Below, in pieces: positions 562 to 37,495 of a DNA stretch of 64,000 bases. The notes beneath the pieces were generated by a model. It had not been told where the DNA came from, searched no databases, and saw nothing but the letters and a program-made list of their open reading frames with translations. The stretch spans positions 310,001 through 374,000 of the forward strand of contig NZ_AP025628.1 in NCBI RefSeq assembly GCF_025999835.1, read 5' to 3'. This DNA is from Caldinitratiruptor microaerophilus. Lineage in GTDB: Bacteria > Bacillota > Sulfobacillia > Symbiobacteriales > ZC4RG38. The stretch's first letter is position 1; the number at the start of each line of letters is the position of its first letter. The translations under genes were made by a program, and so were the position numbers.

Positions 562-1095
562 TCAGCGGGTGACCTCCACCCGCAGGGCCACGGACATGCG
601 GTTGAAGGCGTTGAAGGCCCCGACGGCCGCGACGAGCTCGATGATCTGCCCCTCGTCGAAGTGGGCGGTGAGGCGGCTCCACAGCTCGTCGTCGACGGGT
701 TCGTTGCGGGTCATGCGCTCGGCCAGCTCGAGGGCCGTCTTCTCGCGGTCGGAGAAGGCCGGGCTGAGCTTCCAGAGCGCCAGGTCCGCCAGCCGTTCTT
801 CGGAAGCTCCGGCGCGCCTTGCCAAGGCGCTGTGGGAGGCCTGTCAGTAGGCGCTGTCGTTGATCTGCGAGACCCGCAGGATGCACAGCTCCTTGAGCTG
901 CACGTCCACCGTGCCCGTGTAGGTGACGGCGTGCAGCAGGTTGGCGTACGCCGTCATGATCTCGGGCCGCCGGGCCAGGGTGCGGAAGAGGTTGGGGATG
1001 TTGCCGCGCTCCTGCAGGAAGCGGTCGAAGACCGGGCGGGCGGCGGGGTCGACTTCCTCCGGGGCGAGCGCCCGCATCCGCGGGGGCAGGGACAT
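562..1095 (-). CDS. Candidate selenoprotein: carboxymuconolactone decarboxylase/AhpD-like protein with in-frame TGA
   Basis: Read through a single TGA at 846-844, this is a full-length (177-residue) member of the AhpD/carboxymuconolactone decarboxylase fold (peroxidase-related family). The first 83 codons end in NDSAY. The TGA falls exactly where the family has the second Cys of its CxxC redox motif, and the same frame continues with QASHSALARRAG, an acidic middle and a conserved GAFNAFNRM-type C-terminus. The His and A-x-x-A-G residues that normally follow the CxxC are present, so both halves look functional. The first Cys is replaced by Ser, giving SxxU. A 17-nt perfect hairpin starts 14 nt after the TGA, as expected of a bacterial SECIS element. 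The start ATG at 1095 has GAGGAGG about 8 nt upstream. An alternative is a Cys-to-stop nonsense mutation. No selA, selB or selD is in the window. Confidence 0.72.
814..830 (-). promoter_or_regulatory. SECIS-like hairpin downstream of in-frame TGA
   Basis: On the coding (minus) strand, GCGCCTT and AAGGCGC pair perfectly around a GGC loop, 13 nt after the TGA codon. The loop lies about 21-23 nt past the TGA and begins with G, which agrees with the spacing and loop preference described for bacterial SECIS elements. It lies inside the coding region of the AhpD-like gene. Confidence 0.6.
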
Positions 1096-1174
1096 GGTGG
1101 GGCCTCCTCTCGATGGCGAACTGGCTCCCCACGGGGGTTCGACGGGTGGGGCAGCGGTTCCTGGCCGCCCCCGG

Positions 1175-36796: not shown

Positions 36797-37306
36797 TCAG
36801 AGGCCGAGGGAGAGCAGGAGCGCTGTCGTGTCGTCCAGGACGCCCAGCGGCCCCGTCACGGCGATACCGGGCACGCCGAAGAAGGGGGTGCCGAAGACGG
36901 CCGCGAACTGGCCGGTGAGGATCGGGTTCACCGCCACCTGAGCCAGCAGGGCCGGGCATGCGGCCATGATGGAGGCGACGGTCGGGTTGGCGAGGAGGAG
37001 GTTCACCAGCTGGATGTTGGCGGCCACCTGCGCGGCCAGGGTCGGGTTGGCCCGCAGCACGGCGGCCAGGCTGGGGTTCACGGTGGAGATCAGGTTGATG
37101 AGCTGCTGGGCGGTCAGGGAAACCCCGATCGCGCTGGGGCCCACAGCCGGAGCCACGGTCGGGATCGCCGCCGGAGCCGTGAGGCCGGTGATCCCGGTCA
37201 CGGCGGGCGGTACCGCCGCCGGCGGGCAGTTGACCACCACCGTGGGTGCCGCCGCCGGGGTCACCGGGGTGACGCGGACCTCGGTCACGCCGCCTCTCTT
37301 GTCCAT
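36797..37306 (-). CDS. Hydrophobic NP-repeat protein 4, unknown family
   Basis: 169 residues from ATG 37306, directly after GGAGGTGAAAGC. The first 55 residues are Val/Thr/Pro/Ala-rich with one Cys (VVVNCPPAAVPP). A helical repeat region follows in which Asn-Pro or Cys-Pro recurs every 8-12 residues: STVNPSLAAVLRANPTLAAQ, VNLLLANPTVASIMAACP and LLAQVAVNPILTGQFAAVFG. It ends DDTTALLLSLGL. The NP-x-L/V-A-A pattern links it to the three proteins at 29.9-31.3 kb. A CATA-N3-TA element, the -10 form used by mother-cell sigma-K, lies 32 nt upstream, which points to a late sporulation protein. No known family is recognised. Confidence 0.7.
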   Translation of the reverse strand: MDKRGGVTEVRVTPVTPAAAPTVVVNCPPAAVPPAVTGITGLTAPAAIPTVAPAVGPSAIGVSLTAQQLINLISTVNPSLAAVLRANPTLAAQVAANIQLVNLLLANPTVASIMAACPALLAQVAVNPILTGQFAAVFGTPFFGVPGIAVTGPLGVLDDTTALLLSLGL

Positions 37307-37400: not shown

Positions 37401-37495
37401 TGGAGGCCGCGGATGGGAGTCGAACCCATCTCCGGACGCTGTGGTCCGGACGCCAGGGTTTGCAGCCCCGGGGGAACACCGGTTCCATCGCGGCC
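37401..37495 (-). tRNA. Selenocysteine-tRNA-like tRNA with Cys identity (anticodon GCA)
   Basis: A 95-nt tRNA with encoded CCA. From nt 1: acceptor GGCCGCG pairs with CGCGGCC (nt 85-91) over 7 bp. D-stem GGAAC/GTTCC has a 4-nt loop CGGT, as in E. coli tRNA-Sec. The anticodon stem CGGGG/CCCTG carries the loop CTGCAAA, so the anticodon is GCA (nt 33-35, 37463-37461). The variable arm is a perfect 7-bp stem TCCGGAC/GTCCGGA with a 6-nt loop. T-arm is ATGGG-TTCGACT-CCCAT, and one extra C (nt 84) that can pair with G66 makes the 3' branch 13 nt long, as in bacterial tRNA-Sec. The discriminator is U92 (position 73). GCA and U73 are CysRS determinants, while tRNA-Sec has UCA and G73. tRNA-Sec recoded to UGC/UGU is the alternative. 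It cannot be an ordinary tRNA-Cys, which has a short variable loop. Confidence 0.85.

Follow-up and report, generated by a model that had tools for sequence, protein, structure and literature searches.

How is the in-frame TGA read that interrupts a gene for an AhpD-like protein (carboxymuconolactone decarboxylase, CMD, fold) in Caldinitratiruptor microaerophilus? The gene lies in a stretch of 64 000 nt (contig NZ_AP025628.1, positions 310 001 to 374 000; here called the window), and a first-pass annotation, made from the sequence alone, had proposed that this TGA encodes selenocysteine (Sec). The coordinates given there are right (Table 1); the strand, which that annotation did not give, is minus. 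On the comparative evidence, UGA 84 is almost certainly read as Sec (we put the probability at about 94%), because relatives share both the UGA and the hairpin that follows it, and because the genome has the full Sec machinery.

Table 1. Features of the AhpD-like locus and of the tRNA discussed in the text (positions are those of the window)
Feature	Position	Strand	Details	Source
AhpD-like (CMD-fold) predicted selenoprotein gene	562..1095	minus	177 residues, predicted Sec at 84	
Start codon ATG	1095-1093	minus		
Final stop codon TGA	564-562	minus		
Shine-Dalgarno AGGAGG	1103..1108	minus	7 nt upstream of ATG	read from sequence
Predicted Sec codon TGA (codon 84)	844..846	minus	position of second Cys in AhpD CxxC motif	
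Codon 81 AGC (Ser)	853..855	minus	Cys in 28/29 TGA-bearing homologues	
Codon 88 (His)	832..834	minus	counterpart of AhpD proton-relay His, +4 from catalytic residue	PMC3141380
Codon 69 (Glu)	889..891	minus	counterpart of AhpD proton-relay Glu	PMC3141380
Bacterial SECIS hairpin GCGCCUU-GGC-AAGGCGC	814..830	minus	7 bp, 3-nt loop beginning with G	
tRNA-Sec-like tRNA-Cys (candidate tRNA-ReC / selC* type)	37401..37495	minus	GCA anticodon, U73	

The reading frame belongs to a single family on both sides of the TGA, as had been claimed for its two halves. The Pfam CMD family (PF02627) matches residues 44-126, a range that spans the TGA (3.1e-21; 75.6 bits, over the cut-off of 23), and the halves are about equally conserved: identity to one relative (L024) is 46 out of 80 residues before the TGA and 50 out of 92 after it. 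The best NCBIfam match by E-value (6.8e-25) is NF053654 (YciW-related (seleno)protein), which is aligned along the whole protein and stays below its cut-off (87.9 bits versus 310). TIGR01926 (peroxidase-related enzyme) matches end to end (4.7e-15), again below the curated cut-off (55.8 bits versus 81.8); L024, L027 and L026 all score over it (99.4, 95.0 and 94.5 bits, respectively).

Relatives of the protein have either TGA or a Cys codon at one and the same position. For example, among five homologues from public genomes (51-55% identity), three have TGA at the position of codon 84 and two have TGC or TGT. A profile search of 400 Chloroflexota-group genomes gave 52 matches: 44 have exactly one in-frame TGA (its position was read for the loci that were fetched), eight have none, and TAA or TAG occurs in frame in none of the 52. 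Among 154 genomes from the class to which the window belongs, all six long homologues, our own included, have one TGA, while the short, distant homologues have no TGA. Pooling the searches, we read in detail 29 genes with TGA, among them our own, and 19 with Cys. The TGA is at the catalytic codon in every one of the 29, and each has a hairpin of 6-9 bp with a 3-nt loop, 11-14 nt past the TGA (in L105, an extra residue follows the motif, and the core of the hairpin is displaced by ∼2 nt). The 19 Cys homologues have TGC or TGT at the Sec position and no comparable hairpin: there is no 7-bp stem there, and the longest chance stems (6 bp) are located elsewhere. These alignments bear out the first-pass annotation, which had the TGA replacing the second Cys of CxxC. 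The exchange of U and C at codon 84 that it suggested looking for in homologues is seen (29 TGA versus 19 Cys genes); the random stops that it had named as counterevidence are not, since each relative inspected has either a single TGA, always at this codon, or a Cys codon there.

A phylogenetic tree of these proteins needs about six Sec/Cys changes. We claim no direction for them, because the tree has long branches and open forks, and the placement of the window protein in it is loose. No homologue is present in the two other genomes of this family, leaving no near-identical orthologue to compare for Ser81, and the CMD proteins that plasmid records yielded are all distant (under 60% identity). 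The record containing L024 is titled Proteobacteria; its gene is like the Chloroflexota ones and the genome is drawn within Chloroflexota, so the title may be a mislabel. A distant AhpD-like homologue (L045, in genome G152) has a TGA in CHY*TEHH together with a hairpin, CGGAGC-GGC-GCTCCG, and is likely to be another selenoprotein of the AhpD-like fold, judging from these two features.

The hairpin just after the TGA is, as first described, a perfect 7-bp stem closed by a GGC loop, and it agrees with the rules for bacterial SECIS elements: a loop of 3-9 nt with G in its first two positions, a stem of 4-16 bp, a distance to the loop of 16-37 nt and an MFE of at most -7.5 (PMC13188914). There are 13 nt from the TGA to the stem and 20 nt from the UGA to the loop, and the element folded alone has -9.6 kcal/mol; an Rfam search found no known element at this site. 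Taken alone, a 7-bp stem is unsurprising in GC-rich DNA: stems of this length occur at roughly such a distance from six out of the 1104 TGA triplets of the GC-rich window. When the gene is resampled synonymously, 0.6% of the resamplings have one, although the exact geometry recurs in only 5e-6 of them. The stem is built on the consecutive rare codons TTG, GCA and AGG (2.5%, 4.8% and 3.8% of their codon families). Comparison with relatives is therefore needed, and in our judgement conservation and covariation there are the decisive evidence for the hairpin. An alignment of 14 distinct hairpins has 98 base-pair cells, every one of which holds a standard pair; three pairs are invariant, and in each of the four variable ones both bases always change together, in compensation. 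Covariation scores 0.392 versus 0.178 in shuffles (none of the 500 shuffles is as high), and slid alternative pairings score lower on every pairing measure. We also scanned the window for other sites combining a TGA with a hairpin: there were 78 loose candidates, among which none but the AhpD-like gene looked, by translation, like a protein family across the TGA.

The organism is equipped for Sec, which the first-pass annotation had taken the gene to imply; a genome lacking the Sec machinery, its other named counterevidence, is not what is seen. The genome (3.6 Mb, one contig) contains selA (595 bits), a full-length selB (376 bits; the only full-length SelB found), two selD genes (377 and 362 bits) and a tRNA-Sec with a UCA anticodon (70 bits), all over their cut-offs. 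Both selD genes (L020, C1:2013538-2014461, and L021, C1:1648211-1649131; one of them adjoins selA) have an in-frame TGA at the catalytic site, G-U-[GA]-C-K; a selenoprotein form of SelD is known. SelB is over the cut-off in 12 out of 12 homologue genomes tested, Cys-form genomes among them, so that the presence of SelB alone cannot tell the Sec form from the Cys form. We propose that SelB would bind the mRNA hairpin and deliver Sec-tRNA-Sec(UCA) to UGA 84, where Sec would enter as the catalytic residue of a proton relay, Glu...(Cys/Ser)-x-Tyr-(Sec/Cys)...His.

A second tRNA bears on the decoding of this codon. The window encodes a tRNA-Sec-like tRNA-Cys, missed by the first-pass annotation, that could put Cys at UGA 84. 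Its match to the Rfam tRNA-Sec family (37405-37495, minus strand, 58.3 bits) is the only Rfam match in the window; it has a 7-bp variable-arm stem and 13 bp in the acceptor and T arms, and its GCA anticodon and discriminator U73 are Cys identity elements. A normal tRNA-Cys is found elsewhere in the genome (L031). Out of four secondary tRNA-Sec matches in genomes of the class, three turned out to be tRNA-Ser and the fourth (L101) is a similar GCA tRNA. We regard the tRNA in the window as a candidate tRNA-ReC on account of these features, a name reportedly given to such tRNAs by Vargas-Rodriguez in 2018. A selC* tRNA-Cys has been described with 8/4 arms and a bulged A51a (PMC7609411), an arrangement absent here, where pairing runs through all 13 bp of the acceptor and T stems with no bulge. 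Just downstream of the tRNA gene (36800-37306, minus strand) there is an open frame of 169 residues, rich in Ala, Val and Pro, with no Pfam match.

The main rival to Sec insertion is accordingly that the UGA is wholly or partly decoded as Cys by this tRNA, through SelB and the same hairpin, perhaps under selenium shortage; the enzyme would then be S-x-x-C. According to PMC11415595, which cites Vargas-Rodriguez 2018, a tRNA of such kind from Desulfotomaculum nigrificans inserts Cys at Sec UGA with the help of SelB, and occasional Cys in place of Sec is therefore conceivable at residue 84; the long variable arm, GCA anticodon and U73 of the candidate, its counterpart in L101, the single full-length SelB and the fact that Cys is the natural replacement at the Sec position in relatives all fit such decoding. 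A normal tRNA-Sec and full selA/selD would, however, be needless if Cys alone were inserted, and the candidate lacks the bulged A51a of selC*; on balance we think Cys decoding unlikely, though it deserves to be kept in mind. Equally improbable in our estimate is its extension to a dual decoding, in which tRNA-Sec(UCA) and tRNA-Cys(GCA) would share one SelB and one hairpin, Sec being inserted under ample selenium and Cys under selenium scarcity, here and in other selenoproteins. Were this the case, the two forms would be functionally distinct, the S-x-x-U/C site having no second motif Cys. Whether or not some Cys enters, UGA 84 is, by the comparative evidence, a recoded, SelB-dependent codon.

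Two further readings are contradicted by the comparison with relatives. An ordinary nonsense mutation, pseudogene or sequencing error, with the TGA ending a fragment of 83 residues, has in its favour that TGA is a stop in the standard code; yet dozens of homologues have the same TGA, the halves are about equally conserved and the hairpin covaries, and we reject this reading as highly improbable. A genome-wide code change, with UGA read as another amino acid (e.g. Trp), has nothing to recommend it beyond the open frame, whereas codon 84 aligns with Cys rather than Trp, as the Sec/Cys exchange shows, and TGA ends genes here, including the AhpD-like gene itself and a sigma factor gene (1993-2553); we likewise reject it, as the least probable of all.

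The active site suggests what a Sec-containing enzyme might do. The spacing E69-S81-Y83-U84-H88 is that of Glu36-Cys48-Tyr50-Cys51-His55 in PA0269, and these residues also match the corresponding ones of Mycobacterium tuberculosis AhpD (PMC3141380). The features of AhpD-like peroxidases, namely Glu, His and a second-position Cys/Sec with standard spacing, are present (E69, Y83, U84, H88). The first Cys of the CxxC motif is absent from the window protein, which has Ser81 instead: its motif is S-A-Y-U (SxxU), and that of the other 28 TGA genes is CxxU, so that the first-pass annotation was right to call SxxU unusual (one out of 29). Cys71 is the only other Cys of the protein, and L108 shares a Cys at that place. 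A Ser as first motif residue is also found in a Cys-form relative (L036) and in Thermus thermophilus TTHA0727, where Ser70 replacing the first Cys is taken to mean lost peroxidase activity (PMC3141380). Ser is therefore tolerated in the fold; since Ser81 differs from the other 28 genes and the Ser of TTHA0727 is read as loss of peroxidase, the catalytic role of the window protein may differ.

With the usual partner Cys missing, the enzyme should act as a mono-selenol, most likely in a redox reaction resolved by an outside thiol. Judging from the fold and the motif, this would be a redox enzyme that reacts through its selenolate and most likely reduces a hydroperoxide or some similar electrophile; with Ser in place of the partner Cys, selenium once oxidised would have to be reduced from outside, by a thiol or another protein and not by an internal motif bridge. 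A broader thiol/selenol redox function is quite probable on this basis, while a peroxidase-type function in particular is a tentative assignment, to which we give somewhat less than even odds. The sequence clearly matches solved AhpD-like structures, and also the debrominase Bmp8 (6OHI/6OHJ), whose place among the solved relatives makes a non-peroxide substrate possible.

The locus adds a well-supported selenoprotein clade, whose members are numerous in the Chloroflexota sample; a few more come from the class of the window. None of the clade members tested exceeds the cut-off of an NCBIfam (seleno)protein equivalog model, and automated annotation could therefore truncate such genes at their UGA. 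The gene in the window would encode a natural mono-selenol version of AhpD (SxxU), and its genome offers a natural candidate for the dual decoding of a single UGA as Sec and Cys.

AhpD-like selenoproteins are indeed known, as the first-pass annotation stated (PMC1088965, PMC2398784, PMC13188914). CMD-like (PF02627) and AhpD-like 1/2 CxxU selenoproteins were listed in the Sargasso Sea survey (PMC1088965) and the GOS survey (PMC2398784); these marine-metagenome proteins share with the window protein the fold, the Sec at the second motif position and a small apical loop with G, but are CxxU where the window protein is SxxU. An AhpD-like TIGR01926 CxxU selenoprotein is listed in a 2026 catalogue (PMC13188914, Table 1): it has the same fold, length, Sec catalytic position and hairpin after the UGA, whereas the window protein falls under the TIGR01926 cut-off and has the SxxU motif. 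The NF053654 YciW-related (seleno)protein is related but belongs to a different clade. M. tuberculosis AhpD and Pseudomonas aeruginosa PA0269 (2O4D, matched by the window protein at 4.1e-20) have the relay Glu-x11-(C)-x-(H/Y)-C-x3-H with the same spacing (PMC3141380), with two Cys in place of the Ser and Sec of the window protein. T. thermophilus TTHA0727 is like the window protein in its Ser at the first motif position; it is not described as a selenoprotein in PMC3141380. Since AhpD-like CxxU selenoproteins have already been catalogued, the window gene adds to a known type; its less usual traits are the SxxU motif and the presence of a tRNA-Sec-like tRNA-Cys alongside it.
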